Positions 32,923-50,042 are shown, numbered from the stretch's first letter. The stretch is DNA of 64,000 nt from Candidatus Chryseopegocella kryptomonas (GCF_001536065.1 NZ_CZVW01000005.1:1-64000), one strand, 5' to 3'. Made by a program: numbers and translations. The notes: generated from the letters alone by a model not told the origin.

Positions 32923-33414
32923 ATGATTAAAAAAGCAATTCTTCTCGTCGGGCTTGTTTCTCTTGCCGTTTCAATATCAATTCTCAATCTCGCCGGTGAA
33001 TCAAAATCAACTGTTCCATACCCAGAGGGATACCGCAACTGGGTTCATGTAAAATCAATGCTTATCTTACAAGGTCATCCGCTTTACGATGCTTTTGGTG
33101 GAATTCATCATATTTACGCAAACAGCAAAGCCCTCACCGGCTATAAAACAGGCAAATTCCCTGATGGTTCTGTAATTGTTTTTGATCTTCTTGAAGCGAA
33201 ATTTGAAAATAACACATATGTTGAGGGTGAGAGAAAAGTTGTTGGAGTGATGTATAAGGATTCAAGGAAGTTCAAAGAAACTGGTGGATGGGGGTTTGAA
33301 GCGTTCAAGGGAAATACGAAAGAAAGGGTCGTCAAAAATGCTGAACAAGATTGTTTTTCCTGCCATGCGTCGCAGGAATCAACAGATTTTGTTTTTAGTC
33401 AATACAGGAAGTAA
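32923..33414 (+). CDS. Cytochrome P460 family protein
   Basis: This 163-residue exported protein has a signal peptide (about residues 1-24), the P460 fold with PYPEGYRNWVHVKSM, KFPDGSVIVFDLLEA and GGWGFEAFKGNT, and one haem site CFSCH at about 144-148. Cytochromes P460 and the related cytochromes c'-beta bind or oxidise hydroxylamine and nitric oxide in the periplasm. The Lys that cross-links to haem in true P460 cannot be settled without a structure-based alignment, so an NO-binding c'-beta-like role is equally possible. It forms a single-gene unit with a promoter, a palindromic operator and a terminator. Confidence 0.87.
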   Translation: MIKKAILLVGLVSLAVSISILNLAGESKSTVPYPEGYRNWVHVKSMLILQGHPLYDAFGGIHHIYANSKALTGYKTGKFPDGSVIVFDLLEAKFENNTYVEGERKVVGVMYKDSRKFKETGGWGFEAFKGNTKERVVKNAEQDCFSCHASQESTDFVFSQYRK

Positions 33415-36348: not shown

Positions 36349-37854
36349 TTATCGCTCTGATTTCATCGCAACCTGACGAGTTGAGACGGCGTAAATTAAA
36401 ATGTTGGAGAAAAGTTGAAGTTGAGATGTGTTGTCAATTTGTGGATTGTCAAACTTACTTAAAATTCTCATATAACCTTTGTTTGAAAAAACGACAATTA
36501 ATCTTTTTTGCCAGAAAAGACCTTCAAGATAATTATATTTCTCTTCTCTCTCAAATTCTTTTGTCTCAACGATGTCGTCAGCTCCAAGAGGAAGCTCTTT
36601 TATCTTCGCCCAGATAGAATAAACCGAATGGGTTAAGAAAATTTTATCAACATAACTTCCGTCAAATCTTGATTTTATGCGTTCAAGCAAATCTCTTGCA
36701 CCGAGATTAAACTGGCTTGATCTTGAATGATTTAGATCATCAATCAAAATTATTCCACCGTTTTTTATGCATGCGACGAAATTATCAACTGCAAGAGGTG
36801 AGAATTGAGGTTTGACAACACCACCGCTTATGATGACAAGGTCTGATTTTGCAATGCTTGGTGATTCCGCTCTTCCGCTTTCAAATGTAATTTTCAAATT
36901 TTCTTTTTTATTCAAAAAATCAATTAAATTTTTTATTCCCGCTTCAACGATTTCTTCGCCATCCCCACCGTATTTAACTTGAAAAATTTTTATTTCCTTT
37001 TCCTTCAAACTTTTCATATCAATGTTTTCACTCGCAGAAGCAATGATCTTTTCAACCTCGCCAACTTTACGAATCACAGGAACTCTTTTGAAATAAAAGT
37101 TTATGTCAATAAAATCACTTGGCATATTATTTTCATCATATCCAACTATAAAATTTTTCAGCACAACTTTAACCCTTTCAACTCCCTCCGACAATGGATC
37201 AAAAACAATAAGCCCCTCACGGCTATCGCCTTTATATAGCGGACGTCCATAAGTTAACATAGTTCTTCTTGCTATCCCCATCCTTGCTTCAAAGACATCT
37301 TCATCAATTCCGCTTGAACCTTTCCTTGCCCTGTAATACTCCTCAATGCTGTGGAACTTGCTTGTTTTCGCTTCAAGTCCATATGCGATGAATTTATCAC
37401 CTCTGTCGCTTAATAAAATTGCGTTTTCTGGGTCAAAATTTATTTTTGGTGCAGTGTAATTGTAAATTGAAACTTTAAAGACGGTAAAACGATTTGGAGT
37501 ATAGCCAAGTTCAGGATCAACCCAGTCGCCATAGGTATATGGGTTTGTTGAATAAATTCCGCCTTTTGATTCTTCTGGAAATTCAAAATTGTTAAGTTGA
37601 TAATCGCTCATATATTTTATCTCAACTTTGAAAGTTCCCTTGTCAAAGACAATGGTCATTGAGTCCTTCCCGATGTAATAACTTGTATCTCCAACCATTT
37701 TAAGCATCTCAAGATCGGGGACGATTTCATATTCAACTTTTTGAGGTGGAAAAAATAGAAAACGATAAACATTATCGCATCCAGTCAATGCAAAAATTAA
37801 AATCAGAATCAAAGCAATTTTTCTCAACATTTTTAAAAGTGCTTTAATTTTCAT
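36349..37854 (-). CDS. DUF4159-containing lipoprotein
   Basis: This 501-residue lipoprotein has a lipobox (FALTGC, Cys about residue 26). A beta-rich middle follows (about 40-270), then a C-terminal DUF4159 domain (about 285-490), a GldG/ThuA-like alpha/beta fold without an obvious nucleophile. The motifs NGGIILIDDLNHS, HSVYSIWAKI, YNYLEGLFWQKRLIVVFSNK and DNTSQLQLFSNILIYAV match, segment by segment, those of the TonB-like protein encoded two genes upstream. It is the last gene of the nine-gene envelope operon and overlaps the preceding lipoprotein by 11 bases. The function is unknown. Confidence 0.82.
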   Translation of the reverse strand: MKIKALLKMLRKIALILILIFALTGCDNVYRFLFFPPQKVEYEIVPDLEMLKMVGDTSYYIGKDSMTIVFDKGTFKVEIKYMSDYQLNNFEFPEESKGGIYSTNPYTYGDWVDPELGYTPNRFTVFKVSIYNYTAPKINFDPENAILLSDRGDKFIAYGLEAKTSKFHSIEEYYRARKGSSGIDEDVFEARMGIARRTMLTYGRPLYKGDSREGLIVFDPLSEGVERVKVVLKNFIVGYDENNMPSDFIDINFYFKRVPVIRKVGEVEKIIASASENIDMKSLKEKEIKIFQVKYGGDGEEIVEAGIKNLIDFLNKKENLKITFESGRAESPSIAKSDLVIISGGVVKPQFSPLAVDNFVACIKNGGIILIDDLNHSRSSQFNLGARDLLERIKSRFDGSYVDKIFLTHSVYSIWAKIKELPLGADDIVETKEFEREEKYNYLEGLFWQKRLIVVFSNKGYMRILSKFDNPQIDNTSQLQLFSNILIYAVSTRQVAMKSER

Positions 37855-38683
37855 TTACAAACTCAAATTTGAAATCAATCTCTTTTGTTTTGACATTTTC
37901 ATCATAAATTGCAATTTCGGGTATAACAAGCAAAAGCCATTTCACTTTCTCTTTTGGTTTTCTAAAAACGACGATACCTCTTCTGACAACGCCTGGATAT
38001 ATTTTCTCGTCTCTTAACAAAATCTCACGAAGAAATTTTTTGTTAAGTTCTGTCCTTCTTTGACTTGTCAAAAGATAGCCAGCCCAGAATGGATCGTAAA
38101 TTGTATATGGAGTTATATACCGCATTGGGTAAGGCACTGTCTCGGTTTGAATTATGTCGTCAATTTCAAGGGTTCTAAACTGATTTCTTCTATCATCAAG
38201 TAAAACGAACAGAGAAGGTTTAATTTCTATTTTATCATTTCGCATGTTTTCTATTCTGACATCAAAAATCAAATACGGTATTTTCCCGAAATCATCTTCA
38301 AACGGGCTCGGGATATTTCGTGGTGAAATTGGATTTCCAAAAACATCATAATAATTTCCGTATTCCTGTATGTGCATATACTCGTTGTAAGCGGATAAAA
38401 TCTCGGCATTATCCTCTTCGGCATAGTTTATGTATTCGTCTTTCAAAATTTTTTCAAAATCCTTTTTATCATAAACTTTTCCAGCGGATAATTTTCTAAT
38501 TTCTTCGGGTGTAAGCAATTTTACACTTATTTTAATGCTATCTTTCACAACTGTTGCAAGCGTCTCTTTAACCGCAAGAACAACTTTTGTCGGCTCGGGC
38601 ATCTTATCATAATTTTCTTCAAGCAGATAAGCACAACCAGACAAAAATATGAGAACAAGGATTATTGAAAACTTAATTTTCAT
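37844..38683 (-). CDS. Lipoprotein of the ExbBD-DUF4159 operon
   Basis: This 279-residue protein has a lipobox (IFLSGC, Cys about residue 17). A helical region with charged residues (about 40-105) precedes a beta-sandwich-like half (PYLIFDVRIENMRNDKIEIK, RRGIVVFRKPKEKVKWLLL). The second half resembles the middle region of the next lipoprotein, which also has a statement of the type RGGIVVF/REGLIVF before a hydrophobic strand. The two lipoproteins may therefore be partly paralogous. I know no family. A strong AGGAGGGCG site precedes the ATG. It probably acts at the inner face of the outer membrane with its neighbours. Confidence 0.75.
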   Translation of the reverse strand: MKIKFSIILVLIFLSGCAYLLEENYDKMPEPTKVVLAVKETLATVVKDSIKISVKLLTPEEIRKLSAGKVYDKKDFEKILKDEYINYAEEDNAEILSAYNEYMHIQEYGNYYDVFGNPISPRNIPSPFEDDFGKIPYLIFDVRIENMRNDKIEIKPSLFVLLDDRRNQFRTLEIDDIIQTETVPYPMRYITPYTIYDPFWAGYLLTSQRRTELNKKFLREILLRDEKIYPGVVRRGIVVFRKPKEKVKWLLLVIPEIAIYDENVKTKEIDFKFEFVNEN

Positions 38684-38708
38684 CTTAATTCGCCCTCCTG
38701 AAAAAAAT

Positions 38709-39965
38709 TTATTGTTGCATTACGACTTTTTCTTTATTTTTGGCGACAATTCCGCCGGGTTGATTCATTGCGAAGATAAGTATATTCAAACCCATTTGCA
38801 ATTGTCTTGAATTGTCAAGCGGGGGTGTCGCATAAGGCCAGTCGCCCCAAGCTTGCGTATAACCTCTATTTGAAAGCACAACAGCAAGTCGCCCACCGAG
38901 CCAAATTCCTTCAAGATAATTATAAATTTCCCTTGCTGGTCTTCTTGAATCAACCCTTGCAAGATCATCACCAGCTGGCGGACCGTCAAAATCTTTCCAG
39001 ATGTGATAAATCGGGTGATTATTTGGAATTCTCTCCCAAACCGCATCATAGCCCAAGGCATCTTTAATCAATTGTTTAACGGAGCGCGTAAATGGTCCAT
39101 AAGCTGAGGCAAGCCCATCATCTATGAATAAAAATCCACCGGAACGTAGATACTTCGCAAGATTTTCAACTTCATTCTTCGTGTATATAACTTCACCATC
39201 ATATCCCATCATTATCAAAATTGGGACATCCATAATGTTTTTAGAATCAAGTCGTATTGAACCCATCAAATTTAATTGAAGATTTGGTAAAACCTCCATT
39301 GCATATCTTTGTAGATTTTGTAAAGCAGCGGGTCTGTAATTCCACATTGGCTCACCATTTGGCGCAGATTTACTGCTTCTGTATTCAACTTGATAAACAT
39401 TCAAAAAGCCTCTCCAATCCTCTTTGCTTCTCCCTCTTTCAAGCCATCCTTCAAATCTATCCATAAAATTTGTATAACTTATCAATTCCTCTTGCAAACT
39501 TTTCACAGTTCTACCAGCCTGACGCGTATCTGTTATGTCATAGTTCAAACTTGGTCCTGAAAGGATTGCAGGCGGAGAATATGTTCGTTCTATATATTCG
39601 CCTGGTCTTGCAAGTGAAGCAAGCGAAGTCCCACCGTGAACAGCTGCGGTTGTCATTGAACGAGCTGACATTCGTGGTTTTTGAGGCGCTGTAAATTTTT
39701 GAAGAACGCGCTCAACAATAGTTGGCATCTTTCTAAATTCTATGCTCTTTGTCAATCTTGGCGGACGCTGAATGAATTTAACTGTCGTGGGCGGACGTTT
39801 TGCTTCTTTTTTCTCCGGAAGTTTTATGTTCAAAATCACCGGCAAACTATGAATAAAAAACGCTATCAACAGAAACTTCAACAATGCCTTTCTGTTGTCA
39901 TAAATAAACTTCGCAATTTTATCACTTAACTCAACTCCCGGTATTTTGTAATTTCCGTTGTTCAT
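38709..39965 (-). CDS. TonB-like transmembrane protein with periplasmic DUF4159 domain
   Basis: This 418-residue protein has a short cytoplasmic N-terminus, one membrane anchor at about 28-48 (LLKFLLIAFFIHSLPVILNI) and a Pro/Lys/Arg-rich stretch (EKKEAKRPPTTVKFIQRPP). This is the layout of TonB and TolA. Instead of a TonB C-terminal domain, residues about 180-400 form a DUF4159 domain (SGGFLFIDDG, HPIYHIWKDFDG, NYLEGIWLGGRLAVVLSNR, DNSRQLQMGLNILIFAM). It lies 13 bases after exbD and follows exbB, so it is probably the mechanical arm of that motor. No TonB-dependent receptor is adjacent. Confidence 0.82.
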   Translation of the reverse strand: MNNGNYKIPGVELSDKIAKFIYDNRKALLKFLLIAFFIHSLPVILNIKLPEKKEAKRPPTTVKFIQRPPRLTKSIEFRKMPTIVERVLQKFTAPQKPRMSARSMTTAAVHGGTSLASLARPGEYIERTYSPPAILSGPSLNYDITDTRQAGRTVKSLQEELISYTNFMDRFEGWLERGRSKEDWRGFLNVYQVEYRSSKSAPNGEPMWNYRPAALQNLQRYAMEVLPNLQLNLMGSIRLDSKNIMDVPILIMMGYDGEVIYTKNEVENLAKYLRSGGFLFIDDGLASAYGPFTRSVKQLIKDALGYDAVWERIPNNHPIYHIWKDFDGPPAGDDLARVDSRRPAREIYNYLEGIWLGGRLAVVLSNRGYTQAWGDWPYATPPLDNSRQLQMGLNILIFAMNQPGGIVAKNKEKVVMQQ

Positions 39966-39978
39966 TTCATAAAATCCG

Positions 39979-40398
39979 CTATTTTACTTGAACTTCCTCT
40001 TCTTCCTTTTCCGTAGCAATCGCAAGTTGATCAATACCGCACAACTTTGCAATATCCATAACTTTCACAACAATCCCGTGCAAAGTTTTTTTGTCAGCTT
40101 TTATTATCAAAACTTTGCTACCAAATATCTCCTTATCTTTGAGCATTTCCTCTTGAAGGTTATCAAATGTCACTCTTCTTCCGTTTAGATCCATTTCCCC
40201 ATTTGAAGATATAACAATTGTCAAATCTTTCTCGGGTGGTGCATCTGAAGAAGCAGCCGTAGGCAAATCAACTTTAAGACCGCTTTGAACTGCAAAAACA
40301 GTCGTCACCATGAAAAATATCAAAAGTTGAAAAACACAATCAATCATCGGTGTTAAGTTAATGTCAACTGCATAATCGTTGTTTTTCTTTTTTTTCAT
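39979..40398 (-). CDS. exbD: ExbD/TolR-family biopolymer transport protein
   Basis: This 139-residue protein has a cytoplasmic KKKKNN start, one membrane helix with the essential proton-carrying Asp (LTPMIDCVFQLLIFFMV, about Asp19), and a periplasmic domain (EKDLTIVISSNGEMDLNGRR). With ExbB it forms a motor driven by the proton motive force. It is 10 bases downstream of exbB and 13 bases upstream of the TonB-like DUF4159 gene. ExbD and TolR cannot be told apart from sequence alone, and the partner proteins suggest neither classical role. Confidence 0.92.
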   Translation of the reverse strand: MKKKKNNDYAVDINLTPMIDCVFQLLIFFMVTTVFAVQSGLKVDLPTAASSDAPPEKDLTIVISSNGEMDLNGRRVTFDNLQEEMLKDKEIFGSKVLIIKADKKTLHGIVVKVMDIAKLCGIDQLAIATEKEEEEVQVK

Positions 40399-40408
40399 GG
40401 CAAAAATT

Positions 40409-41272
40409 TTAATCTTTTTTCTCTTTCAATTTTTCAATTATTTCTTTCTCAATTGCGTTTGCTTCATCGTCGGAAATGTCAAGTTCAATTCTTTTTCTTC
40501 TCAAATACTCACTTTCTTCCTCCGTTAAATTTCCATTCCTATAGATGCTTGCAACTATTGCTTTATATGCTTCAATTCTGCCATGTTCACGAAGCAGTGT
40601 GTTAATGAAATGATTTTCAAACGGTTCAAGTCGCCTTGTAATTTTTTCGGCTCTTCTTCTTAAAAAACTATATCCAAGAACCGACGGAATTGCAACCGTC
40701 AAACCAGCTGCTGTCGTTAAGAGCGCAACTGAAATGCCATGTGCGACAACCGCTGGATCACCACGACCTCCTTTCGCAAGCTCATCAAAAGACATTATCA
40801 TTCCAACAATCGTCCCAAAAAGTCCAAGTAGCGTCGCAACATTCGCAATTGTTGCTACAACAGGCAAGAATTCCTCAAGATATTCAGATGTTGAATCAAC
40901 CGCTGTATCCATAAGCTCCTGACGCATATCGTTAATTGAGCGATTTTCTTGAAGCAAAAATTCATATCTTTTTAAAACCGACAAAAATACGAAAGATAAA
41001 GCATCTTTTTTATTCTCAAAATAACTAACAACTGGCTCAATTTTTCTGTTTTCCTTCAAAATTTTCTCAACCTCCTCAAGAATTAAAGCTATTCTCTTAT
41101 CCTTTGGAATTCGCAAATACCTGTAAATTCTTTCTATAATTATCCCAAGCGAAATCACTGAAAAGATGAAAAGCGGAACCATTATGGCAGGTCCGCCTTT
41201 GATTATGATGTCAACAAGCCAGTTATCCCAAAGCCACGACCACCACGATTTTTGCTCAATAAAAAGCAACAT
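40409..41272 (-). CDS. exbB: ExbB/TolQ/MotA-family motor protein
   Basis: This 287-residue protein has three membrane helices (about 25-48, 133-158 and 178-200). It has the family signatures ATLLGLFGTIVGMIMSF and LTTAAGLTVAIPSVLGY that line the proton path around ExbD. The cytoplasmic loop (about 50-125) and the long charged C-terminal tail (about 230-287, EESEYLRRKRIELDISDDEA) are longer than in E. coli ExbB. It follows the TPR gene by 22 bases in the envelope operon. Confidence 0.93.
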   Translation of the reverse strand: MLLFIEQKSWWSWLWDNWLVDIIIKGGPAIMVPLFIFSVISLGIIIERIYRYLRIPKDKRIALILEEVEKILKENRKIEPVVSYFENKKDALSFVFLSVLKRYEFLLQENRSINDMRQELMDTAVDSTSEYLEEFLPVVATIANVATLLGLFGTIVGMIMSFDELAKGGRGDPAVVAHGISVALLTTAAGLTVAIPSVLGYSFLRRRAEKITRRLEPFENHFINTLLREHGRIEAYKAIVASIYRNGNLTEEESEYLRRKRIELDISDDEANAIEKEIIEKLKEKKD

Positions 41273-41294
41273 AAATTATCACCGAAATTTATTT

Positions 41295-44200
41295 TCAAAA
41301 GTTGAAATTGCTCCTTAACCATTCAAGATGTTCCCTTGCGAACAGAACCGCTGCTCGTGCGTTGTCATCATTTGAATTCTCATAATCACGAATTATCTCC
41401 TCATACATTTTCGCTGCCCTACGCCAATCACCAAGTTGTTCATAAGCTGCTGCTATATTCACACGACACCCAACAACTATATCTGAATCTGGGTACTTCT
41501 GCCAGATCTTCGTCAGTTCTTCTATTGCTTTTCTATAATCTTTGTTGTCAAAGTATTTCATCGCTTCTTGATATTCTGCGTAAACATTTATCAATTTTAA
41601 ATCACGTATCAACTGCTTTGCCTCACTTGCTTTTTCATGTTCTGGATAAGATGCAACGAATTCTTCATACGCCTTTTGAGCTTTTGTATAATCTTTTGAG
41701 TTGTAATAATAATCTCCAATCGTGAACAAAGCTATTGGAGCATATTCACTTTTGGGATAACGCTTGACAAGTTGTTTAAAAATTTCAATCATTTGCTCGG
41801 GCTTTTGCAGTTCATAATAGCACCAACCCTCGCTATACATCGCTATCGGGGCGAATTCACTGTTCGGGAAAATTCTGTAAACATTTCTGTATTCACGAAT
41901 CGCATCTTCATACTTCCCCATATTGTAAAATGATTCTGCAATGTTAAAATAAGCTTCGGCTGTAAATTCATCCTTTGAAAATTCACGAACAAATTTTCTG
42001 AACCAGTTTATCGCTTTATCCCAGTATCCAAGGCGAAATTGAGAATAGGCAAGGAAAAAGAGAGCATTTTTGTAATTTTCCGAGTTCGGATAAAGTTTCA
42101 AATATCTGTCAAAAATTTCAATTGCATTTTCATATTCTCCTTTATCATAATAAACTGCGCCAACCGTGAAAAACACATCTTGTATAAATTTTGAATTCGG
42201 ATATTTTTCTCCTGCTTTTGAAAGAACGCTCAACGCCTTATCAAATTCTCCAATTTCTCTGTGAGAATTTGCAAGTATATAAACTGCCTTTGAAACGATG
42301 CTTTCATCTGAAACATCGCTCTGAAAGACATCATTTGCCAGTTTTATTGCGTTTTTATAATCCTTCGCTTCAAAATACGCTTCAGCCAAAACCGAAGTAT
42401 ATTTTATCCTCTCGCTCGGTTCGGGCGAAACATCAATCAACTTTGAAACAAAGTTTATTCCTTTTTCAATCTGACCTGACTTAACATACGATAGAGCGAG
42501 TTTCTCATTAACCTGCGGGACAAGTTGCGATAAAACTTCGTTAAACTTTTGATTTGACAGACAAACTTCAAAATCTTTTATCGCATCGCTATACTGTTCT
42601 TGCTGGTAATAAAGAGAACCACGGGCATAATGTGATTGCAATTTTAAAATCGCATTCGCTCTCTCATCGTTTATGACAAATGTTAATTCATTTACTGCTT
42701 CTTTATATTTCCCTTGCCCAATGTAAATGTCCGCAAGTGAGAAATGCACTTCTGGAATGAAATAAATGCTATCTTTCATTGCTTCGGCTGTTTTTAAAAC
42801 ATCTTTTATAAAGCGTTCGCCCTCCGCAAACTTGTTCTGTATGCTGAAAGATTTTGAAACCTTGATGAAAGCAGGCAAGAAGAAACTTGAAGATGGAGAT
42901 ATTTTTGAGAAAACATTTAACAAACTATCGTATTTCTGCGTGTCAAAATAAATCAAAAGCATATAATAATAAACCTCATCTTTATTCAAATCTTTCGGAT
43001 TTTCAGAGAGAACTTCGTTTAACTCATTTATTGCTTCTTCATATCTTTTTGACTCGTAAAAAGTTCTCCCAAGTTGAACACGGGCATGAACATATTGAGG
43101 TGTGTTTTTATATTTTGTCTTTATATCCACAAAACATTTTTCTGCGTCTTGATATTGAGCAAGCGCAAGATGTGAAATCCCCTTAAAGAAAAGCATATCT
43201 GAAATATATGAAGAAGTTGGAAACTTGATAAGAAAGGAGTCACATTCAGCAATGGTTTCCTTGTATTTTTTCGCATTATAGAGGCAAATAACCTTTGAAT
43301 AAATTGCGTCTTCAACAGGGAAATCAATTAAAAATGCAACTTCGCCATACGCTTTGATGTAAAAATCATACTCATTTGCTGCTTTATCATATTGAAGTGA
43401 ATCCTGATATGCCTTCGCAATTAAATACTGCATTTTTGCCCGCAACTGCTTGTTATCAAAATTTCTGTCAATTGCTTCTTTATACACAAGAATGCCTTCG
43501 TTAAGTCCTTTTTTCTCAAATGTATATTGTGCCATTTTTATGTATGCGGTTTCAATCAAACTCGGCAAAAGAGAATAAGTTGCTATGACATTTCTATATG
43601 ATTTAATTGCTTCCTCAAAGTTATCCATTGCCCTGTAACAATCCGCAATTCTTAAACTTGCTTTGGCAACTATCTCAAGAGGTGTTTCTTCTGCTTCCCT
43701 TCGGGTGACGGCTTCAAAAACTTTCCTTTCTCTTACCGCTTTAAGCTCAATTTTTTCAAATTCCTCTTTCTTAAATGTTTCTGGTCTGAATTTCTCCGTT
43801 ATGTTTTTAAACCAGTTTAAAGCGAGATCATAACTTCCTTTTTCAAAATAATTTTGCCCGATTTGATACATTGAATGTGGGATAAGGTTGTCTTTCGGGT
43901 ATTTTTCAATCAAGGTTTTAAAATAGAAAATTGAACTATCAAGCATTTTCAATTCTTTAAAAGCCCAACCAATTGTATAATACGCTTTAGGAACTCGCTC
44001 GTCGGTGGGAAATTTATTTATTAAATTTTTTGCTTCTTTAATCGCCTCTTCAAATTTTCCCTCTTCATAGTAAATGTCTGCGATCTGATATTGAGCAAGA
44101 GCGGAAAGCCATGGTGAGTCAAACCTTTCATTCGCAACAATTTTGAAATTTTTAATTGCTTCATCTGTAATTTTAAGTTTCCGTAAAGCATTTCCCTTTT

Positions 44201-44450
44201 GATAGTAAGCTGCGGTTTTAACACTAACAATGAGATCACCGCTGAAAAGTTGAACTTTAACACTGTCTTCGTTTAAAAATTTGCTCTTCGTGTTTATGAT
44301 CAAATCATATTGCTTTATCGCTTTTTTAAAATCTCCAGATGCATAAAAATTCTGACCTGAAATAAAAGCTTTTTGAAGTTCAAGCGGTGTCGGAACAAAG
44401 TTTGCAACTATTGATGCGGTAAGCGTAATTATTATGATAATTTTCCACAT
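41295..44450 (-). CDS. Giant exported tetratricopeptide-repeat protein
   Basis: This 1051-residue protein has an N-terminal signal segment (MWKIIIIITLTASIVANF) followed by some 25 TPR-like units along its whole length. Examples are AFISGQNFYASGDFKKAIKQ, ALAQYQIADIYYEEGKFEEA, YFNIAESFYNMGKYEDAIRE and KAQKAYEEFVASYPEHEKAS, many of the BamD/YbgF (Pfam TPR_6) kind. It would be a long periplasmic superhelical scaffold. A GGAGGTGATTTAAG site gives strong initiation. Placed between the outer-membrane barrel gene and exbB, it could bridge the outer membrane and the motor. The bridging role is inference. Confidence 0.88.
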   Translation of the reverse strand: MWKIIIIITLTASIVANFVPTPLELQKAFISGQNFYASGDFKKAIKQYDLIINTKSKFLNEDSVKVQLFSGDLIVSVKTAAYYQKGNALRKLKITDEAIKNFKIVANERFDSPWLSALAQYQIADIYYEEGKFEEAIKEAKNLINKFPTDERVPKAYYTIGWAFKELKMLDSSIFYFKTLIEKYPKDNLIPHSMYQIGQNYFEKGSYDLALNWFKNITEKFRPETFKKEEFEKIELKAVRERKVFEAVTRREAEETPLEIVAKASLRIADCYRAMDNFEEAIKSYRNVIATYSLLPSLIETAYIKMAQYTFEKKGLNEGILVYKEAIDRNFDNKQLRAKMQYLIAKAYQDSLQYDKAANEYDFYIKAYGEVAFLIDFPVEDAIYSKVICLYNAKKYKETIAECDSFLIKFPTSSYISDMLFFKGISHLALAQYQDAEKCFVDIKTKYKNTPQYVHARVQLGRTFYESKRYEEAINELNEVLSENPKDLNKDEVYYYMLLIYFDTQKYDSLLNVFSKISPSSSFFLPAFIKVSKSFSIQNKFAEGERFIKDVLKTAEAMKDSIYFIPEVHFSLADIYIGQGKYKEAVNELTFVINDERANAILKLQSHYARGSLYYQQEQYSDAIKDFEVCLSNQKFNEVLSQLVPQVNEKLALSYVKSGQIEKGINFVSKLIDVSPEPSERIKYTSVLAEAYFEAKDYKNAIKLANDVFQSDVSDESIVSKAVYILANSHREIGEFDKALSVLSKAGEKYPNSKFIQDVFFTVGAVYYDKGEYENAIEIFDRYLKLYPNSENYKNALFFLAYSQFRLGYWDKAINWFRKFVREFSKDEFTAEAYFNIAESFYNMGKYEDAIREYRNVYRIFPNSEFAPIAMYSEGWCYYELQKPEQMIEIFKQLVKRYPKSEYAPIALFTIGDYYYNSKDYTKAQKAYEEFVASYPEHEKASEAKQLIRDLKLINVYAEYQEAMKYFDNKDYRKAIEELTKIWQKYPDSDIVVGCRVNIAAAYEQLGDWRRAAKMYEEIIRDYENSNDDNARAAVLFAREHLEWLRSNFNF

Positions 44451-44468
44451 CTTAAATCACCTCCATAA

Positions 44469-47435
44469 TTAAAATCCAGCTATTACCGTGAAAAATATCG
44501 CTGATTCATCACGGCTGTATCTTTCTTCACCTGGTTTTATGAATTTTCTCTTTGTGAATTTATATCCAAAATCAACAACTATTGAATAACCTTTATACGA
44601 GCTTTGATTTGTGAGTGAGAAAGCAATCGTTGACCTGTTTTCACTTCCTGTGCCATCTTTAAGATTTCTTATTCTGTAAGCAAATGCATCTGGCAATCCA
44701 ATCATCGTCAGTCCTTGCAATCCAAAATTAAAAACAGATCTATCGGTTAATTTGTATCCAACTCTAAAAATTGGAATTGTCTCTTGTGTATGTTGATTTA
44801 TAACAGTTATCCTACGCAATTGACCGCCGACATCAAAATAACCAAGTTTCGTTTCTTTAACAGTTCTGACTTTAAATTGTGGTTTTATTTCAAGCCGTCC
44901 GTTGAGAAACTTTATCGTGTAGTCAATCTTATGAACAAGTCCCCAAAGAGTGATTCTTCCTTCAAGTTGATCGCCTGTATATTTTGCCTCCGGAAGCAAC
45001 GCTTTTGTTGGGTCTCCAAGCGGACGCTGAAAATTGAGCTCAAAACGAACTCGGTTTTCAATGTTAAGATTTGGTATTTGCGTATATCTTGTTTCAAGAT
45101 AAAGATTATGGACGAAGCTATTGCGATAATTTAATGGATCTTCTGTGAAAACTGGGAATGGACTTGTTATCGTGATCACGCCTTTGTATTGATAAACCGG
45201 ATTTGGAATCCCGTCTTGAACTCTTTTTGCTACATAGTAAAGTAAGAGCGAACCAAGTCGTGGATTTGAAGTTGTGTAAAATGTTTTTATATAGCTAACT
45301 TTGTTGATTCCACCTCTTGCGATAGCATTTTCATTTATGAAACCAATTTGAGCAGTCCAATTGCGTGTAAAATTAATTTTTGTAAATGCATGATATCCGT
45401 TTATATCCGGTTCATACGGATAATCGGGATAAATGTCGTTTTCTTGCTCATCAATTACTCCGTTGTTATTCCAATCATCTCCATAATCAAACAGTGGCGG
45501 ATCGCTATAGTAAGTTAAAAAGTCCTCTTGATAATCAGGAATTCCATTTGCATTCTGATCATCGTCTGGAATCCCATCATTATTTCTATCTTTCCCCGGA
45601 AATATGCCAGCATCTGGTCTTCTTATGATGCTCGTTAAACCGATTAACTCATTTGCGTTTTGTCTATAACCGAGCAAAAATGGATCAGGTGTTGGATTTA
45701 AAACATCGCTGTTTTCAAAAGTTGGATTTGGAGTTGCATTGTAAAAATAAAAGCCATCTTCCCATCTATCTCTATCATCGTTGTCATCAACGAGAGAAAA
45801 ATAAGCACCACCGGGAATAAAAGAAATGTTACTTGAAACATCGTAAGCGGTGACTCCATAAACATCCGGAGCAAGATAAGCATAACCTGAACCTGTAAAC
45901 TGCATATAATAGCTGTTCTCAAGCGAATAAATATTTAAAGCAGTTGTGTACACCGGCTCAATTTTGTATCTTTCAAATCCAAAGGTTAAACGCCCGACCT
46001 TTTTTGATGCCTTGATATAAAATGCATTTCCAACCTGCGTAAACCATGGTCCCTTGCCGACCGGATATTTTGACCATTCCAAACTTTGAGCAAATTCACC
46101 CTCAATGTTAAATCCTTTCCAGTTAAATTTGAAATTCAAACTATAAACACTCATTCCCGTCGTCAATGCGTAATTAAATCTCACAACTTGCCTATTTGAA
46201 GCATCTTTGACATTTCCTTCAGCTCGTTTTATCAATCTGAAAAATGTTGGTGTTCCAACAGCGATTGAATCATAATGTGGAATAAATCTTGCTCCCGTTG
46301 GCTGTTCCCAATCATCAAGACGATTTACAAAATCATGAGCTGCTTCAATTTTAAAATCATTCGCAACTATAATTTCAAATTCAACTGATTCAACACCCGG
46401 CGGAATAATGTATCCGAATGTAATGTTCCCATCACTCGGTATCTGTTCTGGATAAACTGGAAGTGCAGATAACATTGAACGGAACTTATAACCCGGTCCG
46501 CCCTGAATTGGTGTGTATGCGGTATAACTTAATGTGTCTGCTCCCGCAACCCAAAGAGTTCTATCAATGCTGAAATTTCTAAAAACATAATACTGAAGTG
46601 GCGCCCCCAAAACTGTCTCCTGTGGTATCGGAGTTCTACCGTTTATATTCTTTGTTGGAACTCTTTTACCGTTTATTTTTACAACTGGCTCAGCGTAGAT
46701 AATTGGACCTGAGCCATCTTTGGGCGAATCATCACTTATTCTGACAAAAATTATCCTTGGAACTCCATTCGGCGGGACCCCTTTAAATGGAACGTCACGA
46801 GCATTGACATCCATCCTTCGCGTGTGTTGATTTACATAAGTTGCGCCTATTGTCAAAACATCACCTATATCAGTTTCAAAATGCCCACCGAAAAGATACT
46901 GCGCCCAATTCCTCACCCTTTGAACGCCATCTATCAAAAGCGGACTATCAAATCTAAATCTTACAGGATCACTTACCCTTGAAGCAATAAATGTCCCTCT
47001 ATATTTTGTCGTCGCCCCATCCCATCTTATTCCATTAAACCTTGCCTTGTCAAAAGTCAAAGATGTAAACTTTGTTCTTATCGCATCTCCAATCATCAAT
47101 CTTGTCTGAAAATCGCTGTAATTATCACTTGCTATTACAAGATTTTGAAAATACTGATAATAAAATCTTGATTTCGTCAAACTGCTAAAACCGCCAAGTT
47201 CTTGTCCCGTATATTGTCGCTGATTCTCAAGCAATTCAAATATCAAACTTCCATCAATCAAAAAATTTCCAAAATTATCATAAAATCTTTTACGCAAAAA
47301 CGAGATGCTGTAATTTTCATAATTTCGCCCCGAATAATTCAGATAACTTTCTTTATCTCGTGCTATGAATTGAGCCTTGGACTCCTCAAAAACCAAAACC
47401 AGAAGGAGCAAAATTAAAAATTTTTTCCCAAGCAT
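44469..47435 (-). CDS. Large outer-membrane beta-barrel protein with Ca-binding loops
   Basis: This 988-residue protein has a signal peptide (MLGKKFLILLLLVLVFEESKAQ). Long stretches of alternating beta strands end in Phe (FFTVIAGF), as in outer-membrane barrels. At about residues 630-685 there are two dockerin/EF-hand-like Asp-Asn loops (DRNNDGIPDDDQNANGIPDY and DWNNNGVIDEQEND) that would bind calcium. I recognise no named family, and a distant SprA/TamB-type or DUF-type barrel is possible. ATG 47435 is preferred over TTG 47441. It lies between the PorV-like gene and the TPR gene, suggesting it is the outer-membrane part of the machine. Confidence 0.82.
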   Translation of the reverse strand: MLGKKFLILLLLVLVFEESKAQFIARDKESYLNYSGRNYENYSISFLRKRFYDNFGNFLIDGSLIFELLENQRQYTGQELGGFSSLTKSRFYYQYFQNLVIASDNYSDFQTRLMIGDAIRTKFTSLTFDKARFNGIRWDGATTKYRGTFIASRVSDPVRFRFDSPLLIDGVQRVRNWAQYLFGGHFETDIGDVLTIGATYVNQHTRRMDVNARDVPFKGVPPNGVPRIIFVRISDDSPKDGSGPIIYAEPVVKINGKRVPTKNINGRTPIPQETVLGAPLQYYVFRNFSIDRTLWVAGADTLSYTAYTPIQGGPGYKFRSMLSALPVYPEQIPSDGNITFGYIIPPGVESVEFEIIVANDFKIEAAHDFVNRLDDWEQPTGARFIPHYDSIAVGTPTFFRLIKRAEGNVKDASNRQVVRFNYALTTGMSVYSLNFKFNWKGFNIEGEFAQSLEWSKYPVGKGPWFTQVGNAFYIKASKKVGRLTFGFERYKIEPVYTTALNIYSLENSYYMQFTGSGYAYLAPDVYGVTAYDVSSNISFIPGGAYFSLVDDNDDRDRWEDGFYFYNATPNPTFENSDVLNPTPDPFLLGYRQNANELIGLTSIIRRPDAGIFPGKDRNNDGIPDDDQNANGIPDYQEDFLTYYSDPPLFDYGDDWNNNGVIDEQENDIYPDYPYEPDINGYHAFTKINFTRNWTAQIGFINENAIARGGINKVSYIKTFYTTSNPRLGSLLLYYVAKRVQDGIPNPVYQYKGVITITSPFPVFTEDPLNYRNSFVHNLYLETRYTQIPNLNIENRVRFELNFQRPLGDPTKALLPEAKYTGDQLEGRITLWGLVHKIDYTIKFLNGRLEIKPQFKVRTVKETKLGYFDVGGQLRRITVINQHTQETIPIFRVGYKLTDRSVFNFGLQGLTMIGLPDAFAYRIRNLKDGTGSENRSTIAFSLTNQSSYKGYSIVVDFGYKFTKRKFIKPGEERYSRDESAIFFTVIAGF

Positions 47436-47452
47436 ACCCAATTTCTAATTTT

Positions 47453-48370
47453 TTATAGATTGAATTCAACGCTGAACTTATGGCTTCCACCAGCATCGGG
47501 AATTTCAAATTGATAAACATAAACATAATCAATTTTAAACTTCCAATATCTTAACCCGAAGCCAGGATTTACACTACTTTGTTTAACTCCGTTTAAACTT
47601 GTTCCCGCTGAACCTCTCAAAACAAACTCAAATTCACTATTCAAAAATTTTTCCGAAAATGCAGAAATTTCAAAACCAAGATCAACTTTAAAATCCTCAT
47701 CAGATTTAAAAACGCCAATCCCAAAAAGATAATTGAAAGAGTTTGAGACATAGACAATTCCACCCACTATTTCCAAAGGCAATTTCGCATCTTTTGATTT
47801 ATTAACCGCAATGCTCGGTTGAGTTATATTTCTTGCTGAAACCCCAAATCTTAAATCTGAACCGTTGATAAAATTTTGCCACACAAAAATAGCCCCCGCA
47901 TCAAATGTGAAGTTAAAATATGAATATGCAGATTCACCAACAGGTGCAACAGAAGACCAGCGAAGGAACTTAACACTTCCACCAAGCGATAAACCCTTGA
48001 TATACTTAAATTCTCTCGCAACTGAAAAAATCAATTGATTTTCGTTCCACATTCCAGTTTTGAAAAATGTAACTCCTGCACCGAGATCAAAAATTGAAAA
48101 CACTGGCAAAACCGCACCAAGCGTAAGGTAATATAAATTTTCGTCTTCAACGAAAGGATACAATCTTGAATATGTTGAAGCGAAGGATAAATTTTTTAAT
48201 TGTCCAATTCCAGCGGGATTATAAAAAATTCCGTATGCGTTATTTGAAATCGCAACATAAGATAAGCCAAGTGAAAAAGCCCTTGCACCATTTCCAAGGT
48301 CTTTGAACGCACCTGCAAAACCAAAATCAAACACAACCAAAAAACATATTACGAAAAAAATTTTTCGCAT
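47453..48370 (-). CDS. PorV/PorQ-family outer-membrane protein
   Basis: This 305-residue protein has a signal peptide (about 1-20). The start of the mature chain, GARAFSLGLSYVAISNNAYGIFYNPAGIGQL, is the hallmark of the PorV/PorQ (FadL-like) barrel family. The strands alternate to a final VEFNL. PorV acts in type IX secretion by shuttling cargo to the attachment complex; PorQ-like paralogues have unclear roles. Its place behind a gene for a secreted FlgD-tailed protein and ahead of a large barrel suggests a cargo or assembly role here. Confidence 0.88.
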   Translation of the reverse strand: MRKIFFVICFLVVFDFGFAGAFKDLGNGARAFSLGLSYVAISNNAYGIFYNPAGIGQLKNLSFASTYSRLYPFVEDENLYYLTLGAVLPVFSIFDLGAGVTFFKTGMWNENQLIFSVAREFKYIKGLSLGGSVKFLRWSSVAPVGESAYSYFNFTFDAGAIFVWQNFINGSDLRFGVSARNITQPSIAVNKSKDAKLPLEIVGGIVYVSNSFNYLFGIGVFKSDEDFKVDLGFEISAFSEKFLNSEFEFVLRGSAGTSLNGVKQSSVNPGFGLRYWKFKIDYVYVYQFEIPDAGGSHKFSVEFNL

Positions 48371-48389
48371 ATTTCAATTGTGTTAATTT

Positions 48390-50042
48390 TCAATAAACAA
48401 CGGTTATCGTTTTAAAGATCGTTTCAACTCCTTTATCAGCTTCAATAGCAACTCTCAACAGATAAACACCGGGTCTAACTGTCCTTCCAGAGTCATCTCT
48501 ACCGTCCCAAAGGAATGAGTTTGAAGATATATAAGCAAACGCTTTGCTTTGCCCATCGTAAATGGTTTTAACAAGCTTTCCAGTTAAATCAAAAATTTGA
48601 ATTTTCAAATTTCTCTCAACATTTAAATTAGCAAGGAAAAAACTTATTTGCGTCCTATCGTTTAATCCATCTCCATTTGGAGAAAATGGATTTGGATTTA
48701 TCTGTAAGTCAACGATTAACTTTTCCGGAACATCTGTGGTAAATACAGTTTGAGTGTTTGTGCTTCCCCTTATCTTTGAATCAATAAATTGCGGATTATC
48801 TGGAGTTAATTTGCTTATCGCAACCGCTGGAAACTCGTTAACATCAAGATAAAGCGTCAAACTTAATTTAACTGCCAATCTTGAACTTGCTTTAATTGAC
48901 TGCGGAAAAGAAATTTTAACATAATCAGGCGAAACTATCGCATTAAAAGTCACTGGATTCCCGTTCAAAGTAACTGCGTCAATAGTTGCGGGTGAAGGTG
49001 TGAATATAACAAGAGTGTCAATTCCAAGCGAATTTTCATCAACATCAATATCAAAATTGCAAGTTATTTGAGTTCTCTTTAAAATTGGAACAACTTGCGG
49101 TTCAACTTCAATGAAGATATTTTTAGCGACAAGATTTTTGTTGTAGTAAATTGCAAGTTTCCTTAAAACAGGGGTTTCCGTGCTTGCAGTTCTAAGATTT
49201 GCTTTAAATTGAATGTATCTTCTTGGTTCAGCAACCTTTAAAATATCTTTAACTTTTATTTCAGGCGACCATTGACTGAAAAAGTTTGTGTTATTTAATT
49301 CTCCAGTTCTAAATTGTAAACCAATATCTGTTCCCTCAGGCAATTCAAAATCAAATTCTGCCCATCCCCAATTAACCGGTCGCCCAGCATCTATAACTTT
49401 TGATACATAACTTCCGGATGAAAGGTATCCAACTCCATAAATTTCAATTTCAGATATCACAGTTGAACTAAATCTATCAATGACATCAAAACTCACCTTA
49501 ACAAACCTGGCAAGCATCGGATCAAAAATGTCAAGTGTTTTAACATCAAGATTATCTGTCTTTTGAACGATTCTTGTCAGTTGCAGAGAATCCAAGCCGG
49601 CAAAAATTGTGTATGCTCTCGGTCTTAAAGATGCATTCCCGCCAAATGTCACAATTACAACTTTGTTAATTCTTCTAACAGCCAGAAGGTCAATCAAAAT
49701 ATAACTTCCCTCACCACCCGGTCTTATTTGGCAAAAAGTTCTTGTATCTCCGTCAATTACCTTCATCGGATTTCCAGTCACAGTGTCAATATCGCCCGTT
49801 GAAGTTCTGGGTGCACCTGTTCCGTAATAAGTTATCGTTGCCCGTCTGCCTTTTGCAAGGTTTTCTTGTTCCCCAGTTTTTAAAATCACATGCCCTGATG
49901 AATTTAAAAGAGCCACCCCTTGACTTGATGTGCTATCAAAATATTGTGTGAAATTTGAAATGACAATAGAATCTGTGACAACCTGTGATTTTGCGGTTAA
50001 TGCTGTTATTATGACAAAAGCAAGCAGAATTTTTATTCGCAT
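48390..50042 (-). CDS. Secreted discoidin-like protein with FlgD/T9SS-like C-terminal domain
   Basis: This 550-residue protein has a signal peptide (about 1-19). Near residues 60-200 it has an F5/8 type C (discoidin) like domain (NLAKGRRATITYYGTG, VIDGDTRTFCQIRPGGEGSYILIDL, ISEIEIYGVGY) that binds carbohydrates or surfaces in other proteins. A beta-rich middle follows. The C-terminal 95 residues start INPNPFSPNGDGLNDRTQIS and end in GVYLLRVAIEADKG, a FlgD-Ig-like domain used as a secretion or attachment tag in Bacteroidota. It is the first gene of the nine-gene envelope operon, with a promoter 38 bases upstream. Confidence 0.83.
   Translation of the reverse strand: MRIKILLAFVIITALTAKSQVVTDSIVISNFTQYFDSTSSQGVALLNSSGHVILKTGEQENLAKGRRATITYYGTGAPRTSTGDIDTVTGNPMKVIDGDTRTFCQIRPGGEGSYILIDLLAVRRINKVVIVTFGGNASLRPRAYTIFAGLDSLQLTRIVQKTDNLDVKTLDIFDPMLARFVKVSFDVIDRFSSTVISEIEIYGVGYLSSGSYVSKVIDAGRPVNWGWAEFDFELPEGTDIGLQFRTGELNNTNFFSQWSPEIKVKDILKVAEPRRYIQFKANLRTASTETPVLRKLAIYYNKNLVAKNIFIEVEPQVVPILKRTQITCNFDIDVDENSLGIDTLVIFTPSPATIDAVTLNGNPVTFNAIVSPDYVKISFPQSIKASSRLAVKLSLTLYLDVNEFPAVAISKLTPDNPQFIDSKIRGSTNTQTVFTTDVPEKLIVDLQINPNPFSPNGDGLNDRTQISFFLANLNVERNLKIQIFDLTGKLVKTIYDGQSKAFAYISSNSFLWDGRDDSGRTVRPGVYLLRVAIEADKGVETIFKTITVVY

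Follow-up and report, generated by a model that had tools for sequence, protein, structure and literature searches.

In a 64,000-nucleotide stretch of the Candidatus Chryseopegocella kryptomonas genome (GCF_001536065.1, NZ_CZVW01000005.1:1-64000; referred to here as the window), nine minus-strand open reading frames (ORFs) at positions 36349 to 50042 form a cassette that probably encodes a force transducer driven by the proton motive force (PMF). The genes are numbered g1 to g9 in order of transcription, with g5 encoding ExbB and g6 encoding ExbD. In our preferred reading, the g5-g6 motor, with g4 as a scaffold, would act through g7 and g9 on a complex of g3, g2, and g1. A little more cautiously, we also lean toward regarding it as a previously undescribed class of energized trans-envelope machine, patchily distributed in Bacteroidota (Kryptonia and Ignavibacteria), KSB1, Zixibacteria, and Marinimicrobia. 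In such a machine, a TonB-like arm with a DUF4159 head would drive a new barrel family, and the motor-binding half of the arm would have been exchanged when it was refitted to a different proton motor.

All nine ORFs are read in one direction, with no gap longer than 25 nt and one 11-nt overlap (the intergenic distances from 5' to 3' are 19, 11, 18, 22, 10, 13, 25, and -11 nt). Matches above the Pfam cutoff in the window were ExbB, ExbD, DUF4159 (in g7 and g9), F5/8C and CHU_C (both in g1), and many tetratricopeptide repeats (TPRs) in g4. These ORFs and matches bear out the initial annotation, which had described nine co-directional genes with these domains. The GLFGT motif of ExbB and Asp20 of ExbD are both present in the operon motor proteins, and the ExbD Asp motif is kept in nearly all ExbD proteins examined. 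Promoter and terminator scans of the region were close to chance level. A classical ExbB-ExbD-TonB set is present elsewhere in the genome, so the cassette is not its only Ton-type motor. Therefore, the earlier statement that neither classical ExbBD-TonB nor TolQRA is here is true of the operon but not of the genome.

Loci were annotated with profiles of all nine window genes. The order g1-g2-g3-g4-ExbB-ExbD-g7-g9 was found in Kryptonia, in family f12, at loci L068, L089, and L101, and in KSB1 (L097), Zixibacteria (L100), and Marinimicrobia (L102 and L103). Another Marinimicrobia locus (L106) has the same order from g3 onward. The identity of g3 to the window protein is 36 to 40% in the non-Bacteroidota cassettes and 32 to 33% in Latescibacterota. 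Because it is conserved across phyla, the cassette is not a chance run of genes. The initial annotation had proposed gene order as a check, and the order held in Kryptonia, Ignavibacteria, and these three other groups. The KSB1 cassette has two g7 genes in tandem (L097:17396-19972).

The cassette genes are also inherited together. Among 119 relatives, from congeners to more distant members of the class, g3 and full-length transmembrane g7 were found in an identical set of 14 genomes. The other 105 had neither, and most of them carried just a short DUF4159 protein in a different context. These 14 comprise seven in the genus, five in family f12, one in f17, and one in f4. Counted by genus, both genes occur in the same 6 of 60. 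Neighborhoods fetched from the 14 genomes showed the same cassette, in some cases split over contigs. More widely, g3 was found in 5 of 396 genomes sampled across the phylum, 1 of 82 in the KSB1 phylum, 3 of 149 in the Marinimicrobia phylum, and 2 of 4 in the phylum of the Zixibacteria genome. The g3 cassette is rare and patchily spread. A g3-alignment scan of 84,980 species genomes yielded 47 loci, mostly in Ignavibacteria. The others were in KSB1, Zixibacteria, Marinimicrobia, and Latescibacterota, together with one Rhodothermales fragment and one contig labeled Chloroflexi. The last of these carries a cassette fragment (g3, g4, ExbB, and ExbD; L109) and is possibly mis-binned. Gene-tree distances among cassette genes correlated at 0.74 to 0.96 across 31 loci, values that have no null and partly reflect shared ancestry. 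In eight genomes, g3 distances tracked those of SprA (r = 0.95), and recent horizontal spread of g3 within the class is unsupported. In the same number of genomes, g7 distances tracked SprA less closely (r = 0.70), in keeping with the mosaic N-terminal half of g7 described below. The proposal of an energized, envelope-spanning assembly with a TonB-shaped DUF4159 arm is supported by this co-inheritance and the conserved order.

Four arrangements of the cassette were found. In type I, orthologous ExbB-ExbD genes lie between g4 and g7. In type II, a different ExbB-ExbD-ExbD set replaces the operon motor (10 loci, two positions), either before g1 (L060, L071, L077, L084, L093, and L094) or between g7 and g9 (L067, L090, and L092; L075 is cut after exbB). 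In type III, no motor is linked, and the order is g1-g2-g3-g9-...-g4-g7 (L059, L080, L081, and L082; L079 is without the left part). The fourth, in Latescibacterota, has g1, three g3 copies, and g9 but no g7. Since some Ignavibacteria have ExbBD replaced or unlinked, we rejected it as a fixed part of the cassette. In an ExbB tree, the type-I operon proteins, including g5 of the window, formed one clade (support 100/99). The linked type-II proteins grouped together (96/95), nested within the class-wide Ton motors. Of the seven unlinked clusters used in this tree, six have two ExbD genes and a TonB-like gene beside ExbB; the G098 cluster has a single ExbD in its ORF list. This ExbB-ExbD-ExbD-TonB-like cluster is class wide (L135 to L138, L142, and L143), and in several cases a putative lipoprotein gene comes next. 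At the corresponding position in L067, the gene after the linked type-II motor encodes a PBP_like_2 lipoprotein.

The arm itself, g7, has several features of TonB. A transmembrane His was present in 42 of 42 g7 homologues. TonB and TolA bind their motors through an SHLS motif and a motor box (PMC12204202), and a short strand-like motif lies about 20 residues past the g7 helix, where that paper places the motor box. This putative box was [STN]VKF.Q in all 18 type-I g7 proteins scanned. It was PP[VI][KR][FY]E in all 10 type-II proteins and in 4 of 5 type-III proteins, and the exception (L080) has the near variant PPIRYD. When g7 was compared with Pfam at E values up to 1, DUF4159 was the sole match, and the TonB C-terminal domain (PF03544) was absent. 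An AlphaFold2 (AF2) model was confident over most of the head (residues 170 to 400), and the linker (residues 47 to 162) was disordered. In fold searches, all of which were made against the PDB, the best match of the head was 4i66, a solved Haliangium protein (E = 1.5e-11, TMt 0.80), which it also matched by sequence. Weaker fold matches were to IFT52 and ThuA-like folds. From its sequence, g7 is predicted to work like TonB, with DUF4159 replacing the TonB domain. Co-inheritance of an ExbB/TolQ-ExbD/TolR motor with a His-bearing transmembrane arm would place the cassette in the broad kind of PMF-driven, 5:2-motor transducers.

Trees of the two halves of g7 conflict. In the N-terminal-half tree, all type-II and type-III proteins (motor replaced or unlinked) were joined (100/99), and grouping the L067 lineage with the type-I Ignavibacteria was rejected (approximately unbiased [AU] test, p-AU = 6e-7). 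In the DUF4159-half tree, the lineage of L067, L075, L090, and L092 was placed with the type-I Ignavibacteria (83/81), and uniting all type-II and type-III heads was rejected (p-AU = 0.022). The SprA and g3 trees also put L067 beside L068, a type-I genome, and the DUF4159 half of g7 tends to follow the genome. Therefore, the motor-facing half changed with the motor, and the outer-membrane-facing half did not. We read this natural domain swap as evidence for coupling of the motor, through g7, to the outer-membrane module. In a tree that included TonB N termini from the Ton clusters, type-I g7 lay on one side of a branch (98/100), the TonB proteins attached on the type-II and type-III side, and all g7 proteins were also apart from TonB (100/99.9). 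Derivation of the type-II g7 end from TonB is only suggested.

The motor genes might instead be incidental neighbors, with g7 acting without energy, as the several Ignavibacteria with unlinked ExbBD could indicate. We consider this very improbable, given that the transmembrane His is universal in the set, motor-box type tracks motor type, the motor-facing half was swapped along with the motor, and linked type-II motors form a cluster of their own, separate from same-class Ton motors that are unlinked. The initial annotation held that the operon would be incidental if its ExbBD neighbors varied freely and the DUF4159 and barrel genes were not co-inherited with them. Co-inheritance holds for the barrel, TPR, DUF4159, and PorV-like genes. 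ExbBD varies, being orthologous in the widespread arrangement and replaced or unlinked in other lineages. Even so, the operon is not incidental, since motor type and the motor-facing end of g7 change together.

Table 1. Genes and sequence features of the cassette, in window coordinates
Feature	Position	Strand	Description
g1	48390..50042	-	550-aa secreted protein
g1 F5/8 type C (discoidin/galactose-binding-like) domain	49488-49781	-	PF00754, 35 bits, above cutoff
g1 CHU_C/T9SS-type C-terminal domain	48438-48695	-	PF13585, 33 bits, above cutoff
g2	47453..48370	-	305 aa, PorV/PorQ-PorP/SprF-like outer-membrane protein
g3	44469..47441	-	Putative outer-membrane beta-barrel, founder of an unnamed family
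g3 acidic block, residues 551-686	45384..45791	-	Calcium-type Asp/Asn repeats VDDNDDRDRWEDG...GKDRNNDGIPDDDQNANGIPDYQEDF...GDDWNNNGVIDEQEND
g4	41295..44450	-	1051-aa TPR protein, hydrophobic N-terminal segment then FVPTP
g5	40409..41272	-	ExbB/TolQ-family motor protein, PF01618, 104 bits
g6	39979..40398	-	ExbD/TolR-family motor protein, PF02472, 109 bits; transmembrane Asp20 in PMIDCVFQLLIFF
g7	38709..39965	-	TonB-shaped: transmembrane helix, linker, DUF4159 head; PF13709, 77.5 bits
g7 transmembrane helix, about residues 28-46, TonB/TolA-type His39	39828..39884	-	
g7 putative motor box TVKFIQ	39765..39785	-	
g7 DUF4159 domain, residues 205-400	38766..39353	-	
g8	37844..38683	-	279-aa lipoprotein, lipobox LSGC
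g9	36349..37854	-	501-aa lipoprotein with an N-terminal domain and a second DUF4159; lipobox LTGC
g9 second DUF4159	36388-36987	-	PF13709, 32.6 bits

Outside the cassette, a small secreted protein with a CxxCH heme motif is encoded at 32923-33414 of the window, upstream of a MarR-like regulator and a DPP4-like peptidase.

On the outer-membrane side, g3 is 990 aa long from a TTG start and 988 aa from an ATG two codons downstream; the 988 residues given in the initial annotation are correct if translation starts at that ATG. It had no Pfam match at E values up to 1, no NCBIfam match at E values up to 0.1, and nothing convincing in the PDB by sequence. The AF2 model of g3 has a pLDDT of 42, with many antiparallel strands of 10 to 24 residues. 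The fold matches listed for this low-confidence model were mostly outer-membrane barrels, with SlpA and then the SDBC complex as the first two. Most g3 members end in G-[FYWL]. g3 is therefore described here as a putative outer-membrane beta-barrel. Its acidic block (24 Asp and 16 Asn in 136 residues) is the most conserved stretch of the family, with many Asp residues invariant among 15 members from five phyla. Three identities for g3 were considered and set aside. SprA was rejected, with an hhalign probability of 0.3 between the g3 and SprA families. A TonB receptor with barrel and plug had no Pfam match at E values up to 1. SlpA gave a weak partial match, in which SlpA_C aligned below the gathering score over about 90 residues of two homologues (KSB1 and Zixibacteria). 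Three Latescibacterota loci (L104, L105, and L110) have three tandem g3-like barrels with g1 and g9 and no g7, and this is apparently an outer-membrane module without a dedicated motor. An unrelated ExbB/ExbD set lies near L104 on the opposite strand (L127).

The products of g1 and g2 resemble cargo of the type IX secretion system (T9SS) encoded next to its anchor. Among 11 g1 homologues from five phyla, CHU_C was present in all and F5/8C in 8. g2 matched the NCBIfam PorV_fam model (PorV/PorQ subfamily) with an E value of 1.8e-14, below the curated cutoff, and 10 of 10 g2 homologues also matched this model. A g2 profile matched solved PorV (6h3i_F; E = 3.5e-4), and g1-g2 adjacency is conserved. 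SprA was present in 16 of 16 genomes tested, with or without the cassette. The reading in the window's genome (L120, G000:C10:17110-23460) has several stop codons, leaving ORFs of 1,628 and 519 aa; congeners have intact SprA, and the stops are either an assembly error or a real lesion.

Pairing of cargo bearing a secretion C-terminal domain (CTD) with PorP/SprF-like anchors is reportedly a theme of gliding. One tentative reading is therefore a motility or adhesin machine like Agl-Glt, in which the motor would move or load the T9SS-delivered adhesin g1 held by the PorV/SprF-like g2. In this reading, g3 would provide the outer-membrane anchor and g4 the scaffold. The conserved g1-g2 adjacency suits it, and so does the parts list of Agl-Glt, with its TolQR motor, TonB-like arm, TPR proteins, and outer-membrane proteins (PMC3169522). 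However, g3, g7, and g9 match no NCBIfam family, gliding models included, there is no evidence of gliding in these organisms, and SprA occurs in the tested genomes regardless of the cassette.

Energized uptake is also possible, and we give import and motility-like output about equal weight. Here, g3 would import material across the outer membrane without belonging to the TonB-dependent-receptor family, and g7 would gate it in the way that TonB gates those receptors. The discoidin-bearing, glycan-binding-like g1 would capture a ligand such as a polysaccharide, and a downstream GHL10 protein would trim it. In favor of this reading, a TonB-like transducer paired with a large barrel is how Ton uptake operates, and g1 carries F5/8C domains. 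In addition, g9 is followed by a gene for a glycosidase-like GHL10 protein in f12 Ignavibacteria, Zixibacteria, and Marinimicrobia. However, GHL10 is not always linked (the Kryptonium orthologue is outside the operon, at L132:4855-6810, G000:C13). In addition, g3 has no Pfam match at E values up to 1 to TonB receptor or plug families, and a 1,000-residue TPR scaffold and a second DUF4159 lipoprotein are foreign to known Ton uptake.

We consider a Tol-Pal-like role in envelope tethering or maintenance unlikely. The motor would then pull the outer membrane inward through g7, g9, and g3. The lipoprotein partners in the cassette fit this role. So does SlpA, which headed the fold matches of g3 and was weakly matched by profile in two g3 homologues. 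In Deinococcus, SlpA is said to tie the outer membrane to the wall. However, the SlpA match covers about 90 residues below the cutoff, no OmpA/Pal peptidoglycan-binding domain was found by Pfam in any of the operon proteins, and patchy presence among the relatives and in the KSB1 and Marinimicrobia phyla (counts above) is unlike a maintenance system. Uptake, motility, and tethering are all readings of the output, and each is compatible with a force-transducer core. The output suggested in the initial annotation (export, assembly, or motility of surface proteins) is likewise conjectural.

The remaining parts are g4, g8, and g9. g4 scored 150 bits against the NCBIfam PorW/SprE model (cutoff, 250 bits) and is like the PorW/SprE and CpoB TPR proteins in repeat content only. 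Nearly all g4 homologues have F-x-P-[TS]-P after a hydrophobic N-terminal segment, usually with no obvious signal-peptidase site, and g4 may be anchored in the inner membrane. Among the loci studied, g8 is confined to this genus. It aligned with the N-terminal domain of g9 (hhalign probability 88, E = 3e-6), and the two are probably paralogous. Nearly every g3 locus that extends far enough includes g9. The idea that DUF4159 is specific to the cassette was rejected, as a short DUF4159 protein of 220 to 250 aa is present in most genomes of the class. This short protein (L017 to L032) sits in another context than the cassette; in L024 its gene adjoins a DUF4175 gene.

Several points weigh against the force transducer that we prefer, or against the swap that argues for it. 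Part of the Ignavibacteria has no motor gene linked to the cassette, and the Latescibacterota arrangement (g1, three g3 copies, and g9) is without a linked g7 or a type-I motor. In KSB1 and Zixibacteria, g9 is about 260 aa, too short for DUF4159, and therefore DUF4159 in g9 is not essential. The barrel status of g3 rests on its strand pattern, its C-terminal residue, and weak fold matches of the low-pLDDT model. The N-terminal half is a short stretch of g7, and the swap could be overstated by long branches. The test of the C-terminal half was moderate in strength. Motor classes were taken from synteny before the trees were made, but the precise test clades were defined following a first tree.

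With these points in mind, we propose the following mechanism for the force transducer. ExbB and ExbD (g5 and g6) would form the motor. g7 would be a TonB/TolA-like output arm whose transmembrane helix engages the motor via His39 and the motor box. Its disordered linker would cross the periplasm, and its DUF4159 head, standing where TonB has its C-terminal domain, would engage an outer-membrane module made of the g3 barrel, the lipoproteins g9 and g8, and the PorV-like g2. g2 would hold the surface protein g1 once the T9SS has exported it. The TPR solenoid of g4, of roughly 1,000 residues and probably inner-membrane anchored, would serve as a periplasmic scaffold. Most likely, the machine would act mechanically on the g3-g2-g1 surface complex, by gating the barrel or by pulling on the surface protein. 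The cassette, its conservation, the transducer hallmarks of g7, and the exchange of the motor-facing half of g7 along with the motor are computational results, whereas the physical contacts among the parts and the output of the machine are what we infer.

Few kinds of machine are known to carry inner-membrane proton energy to the outer membrane. If our proposal is true, the cassette adds to them a machine whose transducer head and outer-membrane target are both new. DUF4159, a term found in no paper of the full-text literature searched, would gain a testable role as a force-delivering head. The type-I and type-II motors with matching g7 N termini are a natural motor swap in which motor-transducer specificity is directly testable. 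A search for transmembrane arms that bear the His but end in an unfamiliar head could uncover other such systems.

The cassette can be compared with several known systems. It shares with Tol-Pal a motor, a transducer, and a lipoprotein, but none of the nine operon proteins has a TolB propeller, a Pal/OmpA domain, or TolA domain III. It shares with Deinococcus SlpA and SDBC the first two fold matches of the low-confidence g3 model, and weak SlpA_C matches in the KSB1 and Zixibacteria g3 proteins, but no S-layer domain was found in g3 by Pfam. Its likeness to the T9SS and to SprF-SprB pairs lies in the CHU_C/T9SS-type tail of g1, the PorV/PorP-like g2, and SprA in all genomes tested. However, g3 is not detectably SprA, and the cassette motor is ExbBD, whereas that of the T9SS is GldLM.

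The Agl-Glt gliding machine of Myxococcus is powered by TolQR and includes TPR and outer-membrane proteins (PMC3169522). Its TolQR-like motor, the TonB-like arm GltG, the TPR periplasmic proteins, and the outer-membrane proteins all have counterparts here. However, the cassette is compact, its barrels and head domain are different, and no NCBIfam gliding model matched. Glt-named NCBIfam families gave no match at E values up to 0.1 in a search of family models only, not of Glt sequences directly, and the TPR and motor similarity is generic.

ExbBD-TonB shares with the cassette an ExbB/ExbD motor, one His-bearing transmembrane helix, a putative motor box, a disordered linker, a globular head, and a barrel as the presumed target. 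It differs in that the cassette head is DUF4159, with a GATase/IFT52-like fold, rather than TonB_C, and the barrel has no TonB-receptor Pfam match. The cassette also adds a large TPR scaffold and a DUF4159 lipoprotein.

In 2025, an arm driven by a 5:2 motor was described with a non-TonB vWA head, encoded near TPR and TolQR genes (PMC12204202, available in part). These transducers share with g7 an SHLS-type helix, a linker, a Rossmann-like non-TonB head, and neighboring TolQ/TolR-like and TPR genes. The cassette differs in its head, which is DUF4159 and not vWA by both Pfam and fold search, and in its fixed outer-membrane module of g1, g2, g3, and g9. The vWA-transducer description in the available part of that source makes no mention of a DUF4159 head or of such a barrel cassette. 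The initial annotation had proposed an undescribed machine, and in the broad sense this did not fully stand, since vWA-tipped transducers and Agl-Glt are precedents. The broad kind (a 5:2-motor arm with a non-TonB head) was already known from PMC12204202. Judged against the available part of that source, the cassette appears new in its DUF4159 head, its barrel family, and its fixed gene set.

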